Positions 53,565 to 63,248 of a DNA stretch of 64,000 nucleotides are shown piece by piece. The DNA comes from Bacteroidota bacterium. Lineage in GTDB: Bacteria; Bacteroidota; Ignavibacteria; UBA10030; UBA8401. A model generated the notes under the pieces. The model saw only the letters and a list, made by a program, of their open reading frames with translations, did not search any database and was not told the origin of the DNA. Made by a program: the position numbers and the translations under genes. The stretch's first letter is position 1. Each line of letters starts with the position of its first letter. The stretch lies in assembly GCA_021796215.1 (NCBI GenBank), contig JAJYOK010000002.1:186001-250000 (forward strand), in the 5' to 3' direction.

Positions 53565-56500
53565 TTATTTTTTTTGATCGAGCACCAAACGGATCTTCGC
53601 CAATATTTCATGCTGGCGGTACGGCTTCTGAACAAAACCATCCACACCGGCTTTTAACAATCCTGCTTTTAAGTCAGGCTCAAGAAAACCGCTTGCAAGA
53701 ATTACTCTGACAGACGGAGCGATTTTTTTAATCAAGAAAAACACTTTATCGCCCGTCAATTTGGGAAGCCCCACATCGCTGACAACCACCGCAATATCCC
53801 GCTGATGCTGTGAGAATACCTCCACCGCTTCTTCTCCATCGCCGGCAGTGAGAACGTGATATCCTTTTTGTTCCAGCGTTTCCTGAAGAATTATTCTCAG
53901 CATTTCTTCATCTTCAACAACAAGTATAGTTTCCGTTCCGCCGAGCGATTCCTCTTCGCCTACACTCTCTGCGCTGCCTTCCTCAATGCCGACCTCCGCA
54001 GGAAGAAAAATTGTGAATATTGTTCCTTTCCCCAATTCACTTTCAACACTGATAAAACCACGATGACTTTCAACGATGCCATAAACAACCGACATTCCCA
54101 AGCCGGTTCCCTTGCCCAATCCTTTTGTCGTAAAGAACGGTTCGAAGATGCGACGCCGTGTATTCTCATCCATTCCCGTGCCCGTATCGGAAACAGTGAT
54201 GCAGGTATATTCTGCCGAATCGGCGGTCGGAAATTTTTCGCGGACTGTTTCTTTTGAAACAAGCGACGTGGAGAAGATTAACATTCCGCCGTTGGGCATT
54301 GCATCGCGGGCATTGACGCTGAGATTGAGCACTACTTGATGAAGCTGCGACGCATCTCCTCGTGTAGACGGAAGACCGGAAGCAAGTTCTGTGATAACAC
54401 GGATCGACTTGGGGAACGTTTCAGCAATAAGTTTTGCAAGTTCCTGAATGATGTCGTTAATCCGTACAGATTCGACAAACGTCTCGGTCTTTCTGGCAAA
54501 TGTGAGGAGCTGGCGAACAAGTGCTGCGCCGCGTTGTGTTGCCTTCATAATAGATTCAATTGAAGAATGCATGCCGGGTGAATCCTTTGAAACCCGTTCG
54601 AGCAATGAAGCATGTCCAAGAATAATGCCGAGAATATTATTGAAATCGTGCGCGATACCGCTGGCAAGGGTTCCCATGCTTTCAAGTTTCTGCGCCTGGC
54701 GTATTTCTTCTTCCAGCATTTTTCGCCGGGTAACATCGTGAACAAATCCTTCATGATAGATGGCATTCCCGCTGTCATCACTCACAGTATGGCACGTCAA
54801 TGAAATCCAGACCGGAGAGCCGTTCTTTTTCTTCCATTGATACTCGGAGGTTATAACCTGTGATTCTTTACTATGCTGATGGTCTTCAAAATGCATCGCT
54901 CCTTCACGAGAATTGAAATAGATATCTCGTTGCATCGAAAGCCCCAATAATTCATCTGCGCTTTCATATCCGAGAATATGCGCAAGGCTTTCATTGGCTG
55001 TGCGAACCCTCCCTTCAACCGTTGCCTGAAAGATTCCAACAGGAGACCATGTAAAAATGTCACGGTACTTCAATTCGCTCGCACGAACCAATTCCTCTGC
55101 TTGCTTCCGTTCAGTAATATCGTGGCACACAACCATGATACCGGTAATACTCCCCTTCGCATCCAGCACTGCCGACGCCATAAATTCTCCCCAAAACTTC
55201 GACGAGTCGTGCCGAACTAATTTGTATTCTGTCACTCCAATCGTTGTTTTTGTGACAACGAGGTTCCTGATATTTTTTATAACTTTTGCCTGGTCTTCAG
55301 GAGCAATCCATTGTATGATAGACTTTCCAACAACATTTATTTCCGGAGGGAGATTGAAGATTTCATACATCTTCGGAGAAGCGAACTTCAGAATACCATT
55401 GGGGTCAACAATGGCGATACCGTCGGGAGAAGTATTAATGAGCTGGCGATAATATTGTTCAGAAGAGCGAAGCTGCTCTTCTATTCGCTTGCGTTCGGAA
55501 ATATCCGTAAGAACGACGAGGAGATGAGGCTCTTTGCCGGACATGAATGGAGAAAGCCTTCCGGTAAACCACCCTTTTTCCCCAAATGTTGACTCAAGAT
55601 AAAGATCTATTTGCTGAGTGGCGCCGGCAGCAATCGCTCGTTTCGCAGCATCAAGCAGACCGGAGCTTTTCCACGATTCGATCGTGTGAAAATTCTGTGC
55701 TTGTAACTGCTCAACCGTTGCTCCGACCATGTGCGCTGCTGTCTCATTGGCGGTAACGCATTCGCCGGTTGCTTTGTACGTTAAGATGCCAACAGGTGAA
55801 TTGGCAAGAATCGTTTTCGTAAACTTGTGCGCCTCAATAATCGCAAGCTCCGAGTGCTTGCGGTCTTTCTCCAGCTGTATTGATTCAAGTGCAAAGGCAA
55901 CGTCAGCAGCAAGTTCACCAAGAAGTGCGATTTCTCTTTCATTAAAAAAAGCGACATTCGAAGCATAGAAGTTAATATTCCCCACTGGTTTTCCAAAAAC
56001 GAGGAAAGGAAATGAAGCGACCGAGCGATATCCGCGTTTGAGTGCGTTCTCCCGCCACGGCGCCATACGTTCGTCATGTTCAATATCATTACTGACAAAA
56101 TATTTCCCTTCGCGTATACTGGAAGCGCTTGGACCTTTACCGCGCGGCGAATCATCCACAACAATCTGAAGCTGCTCAAGATAACCGTCAGAGCGGCCAT
56201 AATTCGCATCAACAACAACTTGTTGTGTTGTTTCATCAAGCAAGCCGATCCACACAAGAAGAAATTTGCCGTCCTCAACTGCAATCCGGCATATTTCGTT
56301 GAAAAGCTGCTGGCGATCGCGTGTGCGGACGATTGCCTGATTGACATTGCTGAGCACCTGATACACGCGGTTAAGGTTTCCAATATTTTCCTCTGCGCGC
56401 TTACGCTCGGTAATGTCACGCTGAATGGCAAGAAACGCGACAATGTTTCCCTGCTCATCAAGAACAGAATTCACCGAAGCTTCGACAGAAAGAAGGCGGC

Positions 56501-58145
56501 CATCTTTTGTACGATTAACAATTTCCCACCCGACCGGCTGCTTACTGAGGATCGTTCCCCAAAAACTTTTATATTCTTCCGGTGTTAGTCCGCCTCCTTT
56601 AAGAATACGTGGAGTTGTTTTGCCGATGACTTCTTCCGGCGTGTAACCATACATCCGGGTAAAGCCGGGATTAATAAAAGTAAAATTTCCGTCGCGGTCC
56701 GTCATAAAGATCGCCTCGCCCGACGCATCGACAGCTTTGCGGAGTTTGATAAGCGATTCTTCGACATGTTTGCGTTCGCTAATATCGCGGATAATACCTT
56801 GATAATATTTTTCTCCATCAATCGAAATCTGCCGTGCACTGATTTCTACAGGAATCGATGTGCCGTCTTTCCGCACATGCTGTGTTTCAAACACTAAGCC
56901 CTGTTCTGCATCAATCTGTTCAAGCAGGTTTTGAATGTTCTGCCGCAAATATGCTGGACGAAGATCACGGATATTCAATTGAAGGATTTCTTCACGGGCG
57001 TATCCGTATTTCCTGCATGCCTGATCGTTGACCTCGACAATCTTTCCTTTCACATCGCTCAGAACAATTATGTCGTTCGCGTATTTCACGACACTGTTAA
57101 AATGGCTTACCAATGCTTTTCGCTCAACTTCATCTTCATATTGTTTACGATAGAACAGTGCGCGCTGATGTCTCCACCAAAAACCGATGGCCGAGCCGGC
57201 GGTAATAATCATGCCGACAACAAACATCCATAGAAGCCAGGATTCCTGATGGAGCGAGGCATAAACTTCTTCCTGATCAATTTTTGCAATCAGATACCAC
57301 GGAGTGCCCGGTACTTTTTCCAACGCCGCAAGCACCGGTACTCCCCGATAATCAACGCCTTCAACCGTTCCTTCAATGCCGCGGACTGCCATGCTTGCAG
57401 GAAGATTTGATTCCGTGAGCGGCAATCGGAACTTGAATGCAGTATCTTTTCGATAGCGAAGTTCGTTAAGTGAAAGAATATCATTGCTGTCCCGCCGAAC
57501 AAGAACAATTTCAGATGTGCGGCTCGGTATAGGCCATAACTGAAGCAGCGGGTAAAAGAATTTATACGGATCAATTCTCATGACAAGCACGCCGACAAGC
57601 CTGCCGCCATTCTTCCCCGATTGAACAACTGGAACTAACAAATCAAATGTTGCAGCTTGTAACAGAACAGACCGGCGCAAATCGGAAAGAAGAATTTTTC
57701 TCTGTTGAAATACATTCTGAGCCAGTATGCGCTCGTAAATTCCAATCGTGTCGGCGTGAGCACCGACTGACAGCCTGACTTTTCCTTTGCTGTCAAGAAA
57801 CGTTGCACTCGAATATCCGTTGTGCGCTGTGAACGTTTCAATCCATCTTATTATTTCATCTTTGTAAGCTCCTTGGTTCAAATAACTTTGCAGCTGCCGG
57901 GTGATGGCATCATTTTGAATCATCACGCCATCATTCATGCGTTCACGGCGCCATTGTGCAATGGCTCCAACTTTCAGGTCGGCAATAGCAGCAAGGTCCC
58001 TATATTTTTCATTTTTATTATGCCGCACTAAAGCAGAATAATAATAACCGCCGGCTAAGGTCATTCCCACAATCAGGCAAACAAAGACAGCGATGAGAAT
58101 CCACGGAACGCGGCCGAAGAGCTTCGAAGGTTTTATTTCTGACAT
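53565..58145 (-). CDS. Hybrid sensor histidine kinase with Cache-like, PAS, GAF and receiver domains
   Basis: 1526 residues. Two membrane helices (~13-35 and ~303-325) flank a periplasmic sensor domain, likely Cache-type. Then a run of PAS domains (~345, ~465), a GAF domain (~595-740), and PAS domains near 755, 895 and 1020. HisKA follows at 1140-1205 with phospho-acceptor His1166 in GIAHDFNNILG; the ATPase domain has N1278 and DTGTGMD; the receiver domain occupies 1405-1526 with Asp1457 in SDVGLP. A PAS-rich energy/redox-type sensor. No dedicated DNA-binding output; the partner is unknown. Confidence 0.93.
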   Translation of the reverse strand: MSEIKPSKLFGRVPWILIAVFVCLIVGMTLAGGYYYSALVRHNKNEKYRDLAAIADLKVGAIAQWRRERMNDGVMIQNDAITRQLQSYLNQGAYKDEIIRWIETFTAHNGYSSATFLDSKGKVRLSVGAHADTIGIYERILAQNVFQQRKILLSDLRRSVLLQAATFDLLVPVVQSGKNGGRLVGVLVMRIDPYKFFYPLLQLWPIPSRTSEIVLVRRDSNDILSLNELRYRKDTAFKFRLPLTESNLPASMAVRGIEGTVEGVDYRGVPVLAALEKVPGTPWYLIAKIDQEEVYASLHQESWLLWMFVVGMIITAGSAIGFWWRHQRALFYRKQYEDEVERKALVSHFNSVVKYANDIIVLSDVKGKIVEVNDQACRKYGYAREEILQLNIRDLRPAYLRQNIQNLLEQIDAEQGLVFETQHVRKDGTSIPVEISARQISIDGEKYYQGIIRDISERKHVEESLIKLRKAVDASGEAIFMTDRDGNFTFINPGFTRMYGYTPEEVIGKTTPRILKGGGLTPEEYKSFWGTILSKQPVGWEIVNRTKDGRLLSVEASVNSVLDEQGNIVAFLAIQRDITERKRAEENIGNLNRVYQVLSNVNQAIVRTRDRQQLFNEICRIAVEDGKFLLVWIGLLDETTQQVVVDANYGRSDGYLEQLQIVVDDSPRGKGPSASSIREGKYFVSNDIEHDERMAPWRENALKRGYRSVASFPFLVFGKPVGNINFYASNVAFFNEREIALLGELAADVAFALESIQLEKDRKHSELAIIEAHKFTKTILANSPVGILTYKATGECVTANETAAHMVGATVEQLQAQNFHTIESWKSSGLLDAAKRAIAAGATQQIDLYLESTFGEKGWFTGRLSPFMSGKEPHLLVVLTDISERKRIEEQLRSSEQYYRQLINTSPDGIAIVDPNGILKFASPKMYEIFNLPPEINVVGKSIIQWIAPEDQAKVIKNIRNLVVTKTTIGVTEYKLVRHDSSKFWGEFMASAVLDAKGSITGIMVVCHDITERKQAEELVRASELKYRDIFTWSPVGIFQATVEGRVRTANESLAHILGYESADELLGLSMQRDIYFNSREGAMHFEDHQHSKESQVITSEYQWKKKNGSPVWISLTCHTVSDDSGNAIYHEGFVHDVTRRKMLEEEIRQAQKLESMGTLASGIAHDFNNILGIILGHASLLERVSKDSPGMHSSIESIMKATQRGAALVRQLLTFARKTETFVESVRINDIIQELAKLIAETFPKSIRVITELASGLPSTRGDASQLHQVVLNLSVNARDAMPNGGMLIFSTSLVSKETVREKFPTADSAEYTCITVSDTGTGMDENTRRRIFEPFFTTKGLGKGTGLGMSVVYGIVESHRGFISVESELGKGTIFTIFLPAEVGIEEGSAESVGEEESLGGTETILVVEDEEMLRIILQETLEQKGYHVLTAGDGEEAVEVFSQHQRDIAVVVSDVGLPKLTGDKVFFLIKKIAPSVRVILASGFLEPDLKAGLLKAGVDGFVQKPYRQHEILAKIRLVLDQKK

Positions 58146-58423: not shown

Positions 58424-60061
58424 TCAGAATCGGATGCCGATTTCGGCAAAACCGCGGTAGCTTTTCATCGAGGAATCCATCACGTCATCAACGCTGACTG
58501 AGAAATACCACAACCGCGACATTCTGTAATATATCGCGGCCGTCGCTGTACGTGTAAGATAAGGCTGGTTGGTGGTGAAAATCGTGTAGTTATAATAATC
58601 ATATCGAAGCGACAGCAGCATGCTCGGAAAGAGCGACTTGCTGCAATCCACAATAATATCATTCCCGTTTGAATAAACGCCGACTATGTTTGTATATCTT
58701 GCGCCGACGTCCAGATCACTCCCCGCAATATCGCTCATGCGGACAGAGCCGCCAAGATTATGGGAAGCGCGGCCATAGCCATTCTTCGTTCGCAATGCCG
58801 CATCAGCAGACAGAGCAATAAAAAAAGGAAGGCGGACGGTAATATCAGCGCGGTACCCTTGCAAAAGATCTTTGTCAAACAATGTGTCGGAAAATGATTT
58901 CATTGTCTCAAATAAATACACGGTACGCGACGCATCGTATCCGACATTTGCCGAGAGCCATTGCAAAGGATAATAGTTAATAGAAAAATATGTGTTGGAA
59001 AGATTGAGAGCAGGATGCCGAACACCGTTGGAAATAGTATTCAATTCTATCTCAGAGGTTTGATAGAAAGACAATTCCGAGCCGAGAGATAACATGTTTT
59101 GCACATACATAAATTCTCTGTCAAGTTTCGCATTCACCATCTGCCTTCCATAGGCAATGGTTCCGTCATAATTATGAAAGAAATCGCGCCCGGAATGGTA
59201 GTTTAGGAAAAAAGCTCCCTTTGTAGCAGAACTGTTCAGCGTTAACGACTGGTCAATTACTTGCGCGCCGCCAAGCATTCCTGTGGTAAAATTGCCATAG
59301 TGATAAAAGAATTGTACGCCGTCAAAAATGCCCAAGCCGGTAACATATCGCGACGTCATCCTGCCGACACCGAAACCAAAATTCGATCCGGGAAGATCGC
59401 GCTGTAATGTCATTTCGTACATCCGGTGCTGCAAACCTCCCGTATTTCCAAACTGCATGGAATTCCCCGCCATATCAAAATAACTTCTTCCATACAACGT
59501 AAACATCATACCTGTACCGAATAAATTTTGTATATCGAGCCTCAAGATTGCATTCGGTTGGCTGAAATTGAAACGCGGATCGCTTGCACGCACGCCGTTA
59601 TATTGCAGTCCCACCCGGCCGGAAACAATATTTTCACTCGAAGCCTGGCTACTGCCAGTAAACATTGAAGCGACAGCAGGCGACGATTTCGGAAACTGCG
59701 CTTGCGTTTGCTGTGAATCGTGCTGCGCTGCCGTATCAATATGGGCAATTTGGTTATGAAGAATTGGTTTCACAATTGCCGCTGCATCGCCAGCAGCAAA
59801 CTGCGACTGCGAATTGAGGGACTGAGCAGCACTCGAGTGAAGTGAAACCGCAATCACCGCCACTCGCCCGACTGGTTTACCGGAGTGAAGAATTGTCATT
59901 GTATCGCCGACGGCAATTTGCTCCTCGCGTCCTGCGTTAACATACACAACCGATGCTGCTACATACGTAATCGCGTAGCGGTATTCCTTCGTTTCCTGCG
60001 CAGCAGCAAAACGAATACCACAAAGAAAAAGCATGAGCGCTAGAACTTTCCTTATCGCCAT
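58424..60061 (-). CDS. Outer-membrane beta-barrel protein of the cytochrome operon
   Basis: 545 residues. Signal peptide (1-21, FAAAQ). Residues ~25-110 form a small beta domain (VYVNAGREEQIAVGDTMTILHSG), then a Ser/Ala/Gln linker, then a long barrel region with repeated aromatic-ended strands to a C-terminal Phe (YRGFAEIGIRF), the outer-membrane insertion signal. Its ATG overlaps the multihaem cytochrome stop (TAAATGG), so the two are coupled. It may be the porin of a porin-cytochrome complex. No haem motif in it. Confidence 0.8.
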   Translation of the reverse strand: MAIRKVLALMLFLCGIRFAAAQETKEYRYAITYVAASVVYVNAGREEQIAVGDTMTILHSGKPVGRVAVIAVSLHSSAAQSLNSQSQFAAGDAAAIVKPILHNQIAHIDTAAQHDSQQTQAQFPKSSPAVASMFTGSSQASSENIVSGRVGLQYNGVRASDPRFNFSQPNAILRLDIQNLFGTGMMFTLYGRSYFDMAGNSMQFGNTGGLQHRMYEMTLQRDLPGSNFGFGVGRMTSRYVTGLGIFDGVQFFYHYGNFTTGMLGGAQVIDQSLTLNSSATKGAFFLNYHSGRDFFHNYDGTIAYGRQMVNAKLDREFMYVQNMLSLGSELSFYQTSEIELNTISNGVRHPALNLSNTYFSINYYPLQWLSANVGYDASRTVYLFETMKSFSDTLFDKDLLQGYRADITVRLPFFIALSADAALRTKNGYGRASHNLGGSVRMSDIAGSDLDVGARYTNIVGVYSNGNDIIVDCSKSLFPSMLLSLRYDYYNYTIFTTNQPYLTRTATAAIYYRMSRLWYFSVSVDDVMDSSMKSYRGFAEIGIRF

Positions 60062-62647
60062 TTAGTCTCCGCTGCCGCTTGGATGACAACTGTAACACGC
60101 AGTGCTGCTATACACATAGTTTCTCACCCCTGTGTGATGCGGGTCCGTCTGCGCTTGTGTATGACAATTTGTGCAAGTAAAAACCTTGTAGTCGGAAGGA
60201 TTAGTATGGCACGTTGCGCAGACTCCATTAGCGTTGCCGTGACTTGTCGGGAACCACGTATGATTAAATGTCGCACCAGCCCATGTCGTCGTTGTGTGGC
60301 ATGTCTCGCATGTTGTCGGGAATCCCGCCGACGCATGATTCGGATTTGTTGTGCCGTTATAATCCGATGAATGGCACGCATAGCATCCGGAATACACGAG
60401 CTGGAAATTTCCGGCAGTATGGCATGACTGGCATTGCAAACTTGTGTGGGCGCCGGTCAACGGGAATTTCGTCGTATTGTGATCAAATGTCGCAGGCTGC
60501 CATGCTGTCGTGTTGTGGCACGTCAAACAATTATGATCGAAATTTCCGGCTTGATGATTCGGATTTGTTGTTCCCGCAAAATCTGTTGAATGGCAGCTCC
60601 AGCAATCCGTTGGCGTTCCCTGGAATTGTCCATTCTTATGACAGAACATACAATCAGTTGTGAGGTGAGCACCTGTAAGCGGAAAACTGGTTTTGCTGTG
60701 ATCGAATGTTGACGGCTGCCATGCTGTCGTTGAATGGCACGTCGTGCAATCGTGGCTGAATTGTCCTGCCACATGATTTGGAGATGCCACATTAGCAAAA
60801 TCTGTTGCATGGCATGAATAACAGTCTGTTGGAAGACTGGTAAACTGTCCGTTCTTATGGCACGAAGCGCAAGCAACAGTTGTGTGTGCACCAACCAACG
60901 GAAATGCTGTCTTCGAATGATCAAATGTTGACGGCTGCCATGCTGTCGTTGAATGGCACGTCGTGCAATCGTGACTGAATTGTCCTGCCACATGATTCGG
61001 AGATGCCACATTGGCAAAATCTGTTGCATGGCATGAATAACAGTCTGTTGGAAGACTGGTAAACTGCCCGTTCTTATGGCACGAAGCGCAAGCAACTGTT
61101 GTGTGCGCACCGACCAATGGGAACGCTGTCTTCGAATGATCAAACGTTGACGGCTGCCATGCTGTCGTTGAATGACACGTCGTGCAATCGTGACTGAATT
61201 GTCCTGCGACATGATTCGGAGACGCTGCGTTTGCAAAATCTGTTGCATGGCACGAATAACAATCCGTCGGAAGACCAGTAAATTGTCCGTTCTTATGGCA
61301 CGAAGCACAAGCAACTGTTGTGTGCGCACCAACCAGCGGAAATGATGTCTTTGAATGATCGAAGGTTGACGGCTGCCATGCTGTCATCGAATGGCACGTC
61401 GTGCAGTCGTGACTGAATTGTCCTGAAACGTGATTCGGAGACGCTGCGTTTGCAAAATCTGTTGCATGGCATGAATAACAATCAGTCGGAAGAGTAGCAA
61501 ATTGCCCGTTTTTATGGCACGAAGCGCAGTCAACTGTTGTGTGTGCACCGACCAATGGGAACGCTGTCTTCGAATGATCAAACGTTGACGGCTGCCACGC
61601 TGTCATCGAATGGCACGTCGTGCAATCGTGACTGAATTGTCCTGAAACGTGATTCGGAGATGAAACTCTGACGAAATCTGTTTGATGACATGAAAAACAA
61701 TCTGTCGAGATCGCCTTAAACTGTCCGTTCTTGTGGCATGATGCGCAAGCCACCGTTGCATGCGCGCCAACCAGTGGAAATGATGTTTTCGAATGATCAA
61801 ATGTTGCCGGCTTCCACGCTGTCATTGTATGGCAGGTCATACAATCGTGAGTAAATTTCCCTGTTTGATGATTCGGGGATTTGGTGCTGGCAAAATCCTG
61901 TTGATGACATGAAAAACAATCTGTCGGCAGAGTAACAAACTGCCCGTTCTTATGACACGAAGCGCAGTCAACAGTAGCGTGTGCACCAACAAGCGGGAAG
62001 TTTGTCTTCGAGTGATCAAATGTTGCCGGTTTCCAAGCAGTCATAGTATGGCACGTCATACAATCATGACTGAATTGTCCTGTTTGATGATTCGGAGATA
62101 CCGTCTGAGCAAAATCTTTCTGATGGCAGGAAAAACAATCATGAGAAAGACCAGCAAACACATTATTGGTATGGCATGATGCACAATCAACGGAGCGGTG
62201 CGCTCCAATAAGAGGGAAATTTGTTTTTGAATGATCGAAAATTGACGGCTGCCATCCATTCATCGTGTGGCATGTGATGCAGTCATGAGAAAATTTCCCA
62301 AGCACGTGATTCGGTGTCAGTGCCCGTACAAAATCTTTCTGATGACATGAAAAGCATGTGGTTGGAGCTCCGGAAAAATTTTTAATTGAGTGACATTGAA
62401 CGCACGCTACAGTTGCATGTTGTCCCTGAAGAGGGAAACCTGTTGTCGCATGATTGAACTTCATCGGCTGGGCAAGTTCTTTCCATGACTCGGTCGTATG
62501 GCAGTTCGCACATGGAATTGACAGCTTTCCGTGCGGAGACTGTTGTGCAACCGTCACCGCAATGAAAGCACACTGAAGGAACAGCACCAGTTTCCACCGT
62601 TTCACTTTCTTTCCCGCTGTCAAAGTATGTCTGTTTATAATGAACAA
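60062..62647 (-). CDS. Multihaem cytochrome with ten tandem repeats (34 CxxCH motifs)
   Basis: 861 residues. A signal peptide-like start is followed by 34 CxxCH haem sites. Ten tandem units of 73 residues (219 bp) hold three haem motifs each, in the order CASCH, CYSCH, CTTCH, plus additional His (PNH, FSHDC, FDHS, GAH) that may be distal ligands. One motif precedes the array and three follow it. Middle units are nearly identical. The frame starts at TTG 62647 with AAAGG 6 nt upstream; GTG 62605 would give a cleaner signal peptide. Likely an exported electron conduit. Frame, repeats and motif count are read directly. Confidence 0.92.
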   Translation of the reverse strand: MFIINRHTLTAGKKVKRWKLVLFLQCAFIAVTVAQQSPHGKLSIPCANCHTTESWKELAQPMKFNHATTGFPLQGQHATVACVQCHSIKNFSGAPTTCFSCHQKDFVRALTPNHVLGKFSHDCITCHTMNGWQPSIFDHSKTNFPLIGAHRSVDCASCHTNNVFAGLSHDCFSCHQKDFAQTVSPNHQTGQFSHDCMTCHTMTAWKPATFDHSKTNFPLVGAHATVDCASCHKNGQFVTLPTDCFSCHQQDFASTKSPNHQTGKFTHDCMTCHTMTAWKPATFDHSKTSFPLVGAHATVACASCHKNGQFKAISTDCFSCHQTDFVRVSSPNHVSGQFSHDCTTCHSMTAWQPSTFDHSKTAFPLVGAHTTVDCASCHKNGQFATLPTDCYSCHATDFANAASPNHVSGQFSHDCTTCHSMTAWQPSTFDHSKTSFPLVGAHTTVACASCHKNGQFTGLPTDCYSCHATDFANAASPNHVAGQFSHDCTTCHSTTAWQPSTFDHSKTAFPLVGAHTTVACASCHKNGQFTSLPTDCYSCHATDFANVASPNHVAGQFSHDCTTCHSTTAWQPSTFDHSKTAFPLVGAHTTVACASCHKNGQFTSLPTDCYSCHATDFANVASPNHVAGQFSHDCTTCHSTTAWQPSTFDHSKTSFPLTGAHLTTDCMFCHKNGQFQGTPTDCWSCHSTDFAGTTNPNHQAGNFDHNCLTCHNTTAWQPATFDHNTTKFPLTGAHTSLQCQSCHTAGNFQLVYSGCYACHSSDYNGTTNPNHASAGFPTTCETCHTTTTWAGATFNHTWFPTSHGNANGVCATCHTNPSDYKVFTCTNCHTQAQTDPHHTGVRNYVYSSTACYSCHPSGSGD
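60690..62330 (-). repeat. 219-bp tandem repeat array inside the cytochrome gene
   Basis: Successive copies can be read at period 219 bp, for example the GACGGCTGCCATGCTGTC block at ~60711, 60930 and 61149. Units in the middle of the array (~60700-61500) are almost identical at DNA level; those at the ends are diverged. This points to recent expansion by unequal crossover. Confidence 0.85.
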
Positions 62648-62660
62648 CAGAAACCTTTCG

Positions 62661-63239
62661 TCAACGATTCCCTAATTGTGTTAATCCTGCCGATGCTTTT
62701 TTTGCGTCATCAGTGCCCGGCGCAAGCGCAATTAACTTTTTCCACCAGCGAGCAGCATCTTCCGTTTTTCCCATTGTCGCGTACAATGCACCTTTGTTAT
62801 AAAGCGCCGAAGGCTGTGACGGATGGTAACGCAAAAGTCGGTTCGTTACATCCATCGCCTGATCGTAACGTCCAGCCTGTGCATAACATACTGAAAGATT
62901 AAGAAGAACCGATTCATCTTTCGGTGCAATTGCATTCGCCCGCTCAAGATAAGGAATTGCTTCAGCATGGCGATTTGCATCTATCAACGCAGCCGCAAGC
63001 ATGGAAAGATGTGCAACGTTCTTTGGATCTTTCTTCACTGCCGATTCCAGCACGGCGATCTGATGAACAACATCGGGATGAACGTTTGAAGTTGAAGACA
63101 TAGATGGATTATGCGGCGATACAACTCCGCTCGCCTGAGTAATCGCATCTCCCTGAGGCGCATTGTACAAGACAAGGGCAAAAACCACCACACCGATTAA
63201 AAGAAAAATGACGCCGAAGGAAATTGCTTTTGATGACAT
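62661..63239 (-). CDS. TPR protein with N-terminal membrane anchor
   Basis: 192 residues from ATG 63239, which has AAGGGA upstream. One membrane helix (~9-27), then about three TPR units (AHLSMLAAALIDANRHAEAI; VLLNLSVCYAQAGRYDQAM; ALYNKGALYATMGKTEDAA). Resembles the TPR part of CcmH/NrfG-like cytochrome maturation factors. It directly precedes the multihaem cytochrome gene (13 bp), so a role in haem attachment or assembly is suggested by context. Confidence 0.85.
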   Translation of the reverse strand: MSSKAISFGVIFLLIGVVVFALVLYNAPQGDAITQASGVVSPHNPSMSSTSNVHPDVVHQIAVLESAVKKDPKNVAHLSMLAAALIDANRHAEAIPYLERANAIAPKDESVLLNLSVCYAQAGRYDQAMDVTNRLLRYHPSQPSALYNKGALYATMGKTEDAARWWKKLIALAPGTDDAKKASAGLTQLGNR

Positions 63240-63248
63240 TATCATCCC

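Follow-up and report, generated by a model that had tools for sequence, protein, structure and literature searches.

A 34-haem-motif cytochrome of ten tandem units encoded beside a porin in an Ignavibacteria genome

PCC3 is a porin-cytochrome complex proposed in Proteobacteria by He et al. in 2017 (PMC5566968). Its components are a porin, an extracellular multihaem cytochrome (MHC) with a median of 34 haems, a periplasmic MHC with a median of 21, and an inner-membrane protein (IMP) (PMC5566968). The IMP has about 300 aa, five transmembrane (TM) helices, the motif WX3HX13H twice, and an SGXXG motif, while the MHCs contain repeats and have a low residue-to-haem ratio of 22–39 (PMC5566968). PCC3 porins are mostly larger than the one described below, with up to 42 transmembrane regions (PMC5566968). 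In a Gallionellaceae pangenome of 2023, such MHCs were modelled as long and mostly linear, and the outer one was variable, with 10–35 haems (PMC10734462). The proteobacterial extracellular PCC3 cytochromes have 10–18 and 26–35 haems and follow no 3n+1 rule (PMC10734462). In Sideroxydans lithotrophicus ES-1 the genes Slit_1446-1449 are ordered IMP, periplasmic cytochrome, extracellular cytochrome, porin.

In bioanode Ignavibacteria, MHCs with 40 and 33 haem motifs were reported, along with porin-cytochrome clusters of the OmbB and MtrB types (PMC7399161); thus, large MHCs were already known in Ignavibacteria. In the papers that we searched, no PCC3-type assignment was made for this lineage. We analysed a stretch of 64,000 nt (the window) that encodes a porin and an MHC side by side, as do MtrAB/MtoAB and OmbB-OmaB-OmcB.

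The cytochrome and its repeat unit

The minus-strand ORF at 60062–62647 encodes a c-type cytochrome of about 847–861 aa, identified by its CXXCH count, a match to Pfam Cytochrome_C7, and a relative in another genome (L005). The start codon is uncertain (TTG at 62647, TTG at 62623, or GTG at 62605), and the motif count is the same under each. We counted 34 CXXCH motifs in the protein, while shuffling it 1000 times gave at most 3, and chance was rejected as the source of the motifs. Elsewhere in the window, CXXCH occurs in only two ORFs, once in each. The spacing between motifs is 36, then 16, 25, and 32 through ten 73-residue units with zero exceptions, then 30, 15, and 26, which divides the motifs into 1 + 30 + 3. 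A 219-base period, detected separately in the DNA, matches the 73-residue unit. Motif count and spacing thus confirmed the sequence-only reading of this DNA, which had described 34 motifs, 30 of them in ten three-motif units of 73 residues.

All parts of the protein lie on the minus strand. Read by eye, a putative signal peptide of SPase I type with no clear lipobox occupies 62546–62605 (VKRWKLVLFLQCAFIAVTVA/QQ, the slash marking the putative cleavage site). An N-terminal cap with one CXXCH and an invariant SPHG histidine follows at 62459–62545. The ten units, defined by motif spacing and the DNA period, span 60269–62458. Sequence comparison showed that the C-terminal cap at 60062–60268, with three CXXCH, is common to a 10-haem paralogue. 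The exported protein is predicted to carry 34 haems, at 25.3 residues per haem.

An assembly artefact was rejected as very unlikely. L005 (JAJYOI010000055), from a separate genome, encodes a full-length protein that is 91% identical and likewise has 34 motifs in ten units, and genomes that each consist of one contig carry other arrays, of 43, 28, and 22 haems (L063, L064, and L066). The neighbours in L005 also match those in the window, with a TPR gene before the cytochrome and a porin after it.

Outside the 34 motifs the protein contains 46 histidines, and a typical unit has four of them (in FDH, GAH, NH, and SHDC). In 128 family units with identical spacing, the FDH, GAH, and NH positions are histidine in 85%, 94%, and 100% of units, and the fourth (SHDC) is conserved in 49%. 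The expectation of conserved extra histidines was therefore borne out, with three per three-haem unit, and these would give each haem a candidate distal ligand of its own. The ligand order in the unit is H-H-CXXCH-CXXCH-H-CXXCH, which differs from the H-H-CXXCH-H-CXXCH-CXXCH of PpcA-type c7.

We searched the unit against multihaem families, as had been proposed. Pfam Cytochrome_C7 (PF14522) matched with 100.6 bits against a gathering cutoff of 24.8, over eight stretches, which places the unit in the Pfam cytochrome c7/c3 superfamily. Three further candidates fell below their cutoffs and were rejected: the TIGR04257 triheme "nanowire" domain (25.2 bits, one stretch, against 40), the MtrA/DmsE decahaem family (TIGR03508, 15 bits against 192.2), and the HmcA family (71 bits against 400). 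The claim that the unit fits no standard family holds insofar as no curated model has the 73-residue period, but it fails in that the unit falls in Pfam c7/c3 and the gene cluster matches PCC3 of 2017. Tandem three-haem units of about 70 residues are common to c7, the GSU1996 polymer, TIGR04257, and the window cytochrome. The GSU1996 dodecahaem polymer has 12 haems versus 34 here, and a porin neighbour is a feature of the window cytochrome. With HmcA the cytochrome has c3-like motifs in common but not the gene neighbourhood.

An AlphaFold model of the cytochrome, made with 25 aligned relatives, was poor (mean pLDDT 55, pTM 0.23). The earlier idea of a linear haem wire thus divides: an electron-wire role is probable, whereas the model gives no support to a linear shape. 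In profile searches against solved structures, the best match was the sixteen-haem cytochrome 1z1n (HmcA; E 4e-10), and the dodecahaem structure 3ov0 matched weakly (E 1e-5). All matches at E ≤ 0.01 were c3/c7-type, HmcA, flavocytochrome, or MtrF-type chains; OmcS, OmcE, and OmcZ were absent from them. This absence argues against a protein that polymerises or is released as an extracellular nanowire of the OmcS/OmcE/OmcZ kind, with the porin as its export or anchoring pore. The many closely spaced haem motifs, the regular array, its variable length among relatives, and the porin partner would all suit such a nanowire, but our data contain no sign of polymerisation and the array is already long in one chain. 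We regard a polymer of this kind as highly improbable.

The gene cluster and its likeness to PCC3

The adjoining minus-strand gene at 58424–60061 encodes an outer-membrane beta-barrel porin of 545 aa, assigned from its AlphaFold barrel, Foldseek, and conserved adjacency. The model (pLDDT 78) has a small N-terminal beta domain and 22 barrel strands. The best Foldseek matches were outer-membrane barrels in general, and the best 50 included no MtrB, which sets the porin apart from that of MtrAB; its sequence profile found zero relatives among solved structures. The first base of the porin gene directly follows the cytochrome stop codon. On the other side, a gene at 62661–63245 (minus strand) encodes a membrane-anchored TPR protein, recognised by TPR models, and ends 13 bases ahead of the furthest possible cytochrome start. 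Because the three genes are closely spaced on the same strand, co-transcription is likely. The TPR protein scored 35.5 bits with Pfam TPR_CcmH_CycH, under the cutoff of 42, and its relatives are located within the cluster at several loci; it is possibly an apocytochrome chaperone. Adjoining the porin, a gene at 53565–58145 (minus strand) encodes a possible regulator, a 1526-aa protein whose sequence suggests a multi-PAS sensor kinase that includes a receiver domain. L005 has a 1522-aa ORF at the equivalent position.

Relatives were found in Ignavibacteria, other Bacteroidota, and Acidobacteria, in a conserved cluster. Most loci with enough flank carry it, ordered either IMP - (TPR) - flavoprotein - 20/23-haem MHC - large MHC - porin or IMP - (TPR) - 20-haem - large - (10-haem) - porin - flavoprotein. 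In most loci the porin is beside the cytochromes. Of the 38 loci in which we counted the haems of the periplasmic-type MHC, 32 have 20 and the other 6 have 23. The IMP profile, run against 296 genomes of the phylum, gave strong matches in about a tenth, with a patchy distribution. Among 20 loci fetched independently by this profile, 19 carry the cytochrome cluster, the exception being L065 with IMP and TPR only.

The cluster has a fifth conserved member, a membrane-anchored Fe-S flavoprotein (for example at L039:12188-13525, L020:5064-6398, and L006:13466-14770). This protein combines 4Fe-4S motifs and an FAD/NAD(P) domain with a hydrophobic helix at the N terminus, and lies outside the four PCC3 components of the published descriptions. 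The whole cluster, with a 40-haem array, is present on plasmid pEMTOL02 of Emticicia oligotrophica DSM 17448 (L055, NC_018749.1 78197-89995), where a ccsA cytochrome-maturation gene stands directly ahead of it.

The window locus has the TPR, 34-haem cytochrome, and porin genes only, without IMP, 20-haem gene, or flavoprotein. The cytochrome has close relatives elsewhere in its own genome only on a second contig, C26, which is ordered IMP (292 aa) - 20-haem MHC - 10-haem MHC - second porin - Fe-S flavoprotein. The C26 porin is 52% identical to the window porin. Both ends of the 34-haem protein have a match in the C26 10-haem protein, which thus resembles a two-unit version of the ten-unit design. 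In the window genus the cluster is split over two loci, and a sister genome (G006) likewise has it on two contigs, while other genera of the family hold both forms in one operon. The C26 IMP contains HX13H twice and SGXXG; the first W is F in the window species and W in many relatives. Its residues H95, H109, H265, H279, S131, G132, and G135 are invariant in 14 of 14 sequences. Simple hydropathy gives it four TM segments, against four to six in close relatives.

With these parts missing from the window locus, the three window genes might be a relic, a partial duplicate kept by chance beside the fuller C26 operon. G007, a genome of the same genus that is rated complete, had zero matches to the 34-haem protein or the IMP. 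G000 and G006 do have the trait, so it was gained or lost within the genus. Against a relic, all 34 motifs are intact, and the two-locus arrangement is conserved in the sister species, where protein identity is 89.7% while 46% of four-fold sites have changed. Such a pattern indicates purifying selection, and we give the relic explanation only the slimmest chance.

In most relatives, the gene set and order of the cluster match PCC3 and equal those of Slit_1446-1449. The IMP signature (HX13H twice, SGXXG) is common to both, and the 34 haems at 25.3 residues per haem fall in the PCC3 range of 22–39. The periplasmic MHC, with a median of 21 haems in PCC3, has 20 at C26 and 20 or 23 in relatives, and in both systems it is the outer cytochrome that varies more. 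The cluster as a whole thus appears, from its sequences, to have the features of the published definition. By gene content, order, and motifs we class it as a PCC3-type system rather than as PCC3 proper, a comparison made with the published descriptions of the proteobacterial proteins. The differences are several. PCC3 was reported in Proteobacteria, whereas the present cluster occurs in Ignavibacteria/Bacteroidota, Acidobacteria, and others. It adds the membrane-anchored Fe-S flavoprotein and, in many loci, the 10-haem paralogue. Its porin is smaller, with 22 predicted strands, its large MHCs mostly have 3n+1 haems, and in the present genus it is split in two loci.

Related genes also occur in other settings. 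Seven loci titled Chloroflexi (L017, L018, L026, L027, L032, L035, and L036) have related MHCs with a 66-residue three-haem period, one or two per locus in the six other than L018. The IMP is shorter in 6 of the 7, L018 beginning too close to the contig end to judge. A search for the porin in the seven loci gave zero matches, and in the two that we checked an NAD(P)H-oxidoreductase-like gene lies ahead of the IMP. Many Anaerolineae have no outer membrane, and the Chloroflexi hosts, if they lack one, would need no porin. On proteobacterial plasmids (L056, L057, and L058), a related IMP has a 2Fe-2S protein on one side and a 7-haem cytochrome on the other, a set that in the Alteromonas plasmid stands beside an NiFe hydrogenase. 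We rejected the plasmid relatives in Qipengyuania, Methylophaga, and Alteromonas as PCC3, since these 2Fe-2S and 7-haem systems have no PCC3 set. In Candidatus Methanoperedens (L038 2163-12728), a 3521-residue ORF with 70 CXXCH is 21% like the query and has no regular spacing.

Evolution of the unit array

The protein sequences of units 7 and 8 are the same, and their DNA is 95.4% identical, with ten silent differences. Units 5–8 are mutually 92–100% alike in protein, and unit 4 is 82% like them. We compared the units with those of L005. For units 1, 2, 3, 9, and 10, the nearest unit was the one at the same position in L005, indicating one-to-one orthology. On the contrary, units 4–8 (60707–61801, minus strand) were mostly nearer to neighbours within their own protein than to their L005 counterparts. 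At four-fold degenerate sites, differences among units 4–8 were 0.35 and 0.32 within species, versus 0.46 at the same position and 0.45 at other positions between species. Between the window and L005, the same sites differed by 0.47 in the end units and 0.48 in the porin. Thus, the inner units 4–8 are under concerted evolution, with unequal crossing-over and gene conversion as the candidate mechanisms. The L005 units pair as 4/6 and 5/7, a pattern that the copying of a two-unit block would produce. The array had been said to be still expanding or being homogenised: the L005 comparison upheld homogenisation of the middle units but not expansion, because both proteins have ten units. A literature search on concerted evolution in multihaem cytochromes found nothing relevant.

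Across the relatives the haem number ranges from 17 to 64, and 30 of the 35 large cytochromes have 3n+1 haems (p about 2e-10 if counts are treated as independent, which those of related loci are not, so that the value is a guide only). The unit array would serve as a length dial that moves in three-haem steps. The fixed end caps would touch the partners, and the inner units would be copied and homogenised through recombination.

This range of lengths bears on whether the 34-haem protein is instead a periplasmic electron store or bridge like Geobacter GSU1996, with the porin doing something else or serving only as an anchor. The SPase I-like signal, with no visible lipobox or surface anchor, the c7/c3-type unit, and the weak profile similarity to 3ov0 and HmcA are consistent with such a role. 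However, a periplasm of fixed width would not easily accommodate arrays of 17–64 haems, the separate 20/23-haem cytochrome of fixed size suits that compartment better, and the porin gene is adjacent and conserved beside the cytochrome in most relatives. We therefore consider a periplasmic store or bridge unlikely, though less so than a polymeric nanowire.

Proposed role of the cytochrome

Taken together, these results point to a likely role for the 34-haem protein as the multihaem cytochrome of variable length in a PCC3-type porin-cytochrome conduit. It would be a variant of the proposed PCC3 kind and no new family. At the inside end of the conduit would stand the membrane-anchored cytoplasmic Fe-S flavoprotein, the quinone pool, or both. 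A dihaem b-type IMP would make the inner-membrane step, the 20-haem cytochrome of nearly fixed size would span the periplasm, and the 22-strand porin would make the outer-membrane step. We infer that the 34-haem protein, with its haems attached, works at or beyond the cell surface in partnership with the porin and uses the IMP and 20-haem parts encoded at C26. There, its bis-histidine haems would conduct electrons like a wire or store charge. The near-constant 20/23-haem partner would fit the span of the periplasm, and the varying large one an outward reach. Electrons could flow either way, reducing a mineral or partner cell or oxidising an outside donor.

A broader proposal is possible but, in our judgement, somewhat doubtful: Bacteroidota, Acidobacteria, and related phyla would share a PCC3-type conduit that connects a membrane-anchored cytoplasmic NAD(P)H/Fe-S flavoprotein directly through the inner membrane, periplasm, and outer membrane, its outer reach would evolve in three-haem steps by recombination of inner units, and Chloroflexi would have a porin-free version.

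Should these clusters prove to be PCC3, the system would extend far beyond Proteobacteria. The flavoprotein is a new candidate for the point at which electrons enter or exit on the inside. Fixed caps and homogenised inner units make up a natural length series, from 17 to 64 haems, for relating chain length to long-range electron transfer, and the cluster on the plasmid of the cultured E. oligotrophica makes a practical test possible.
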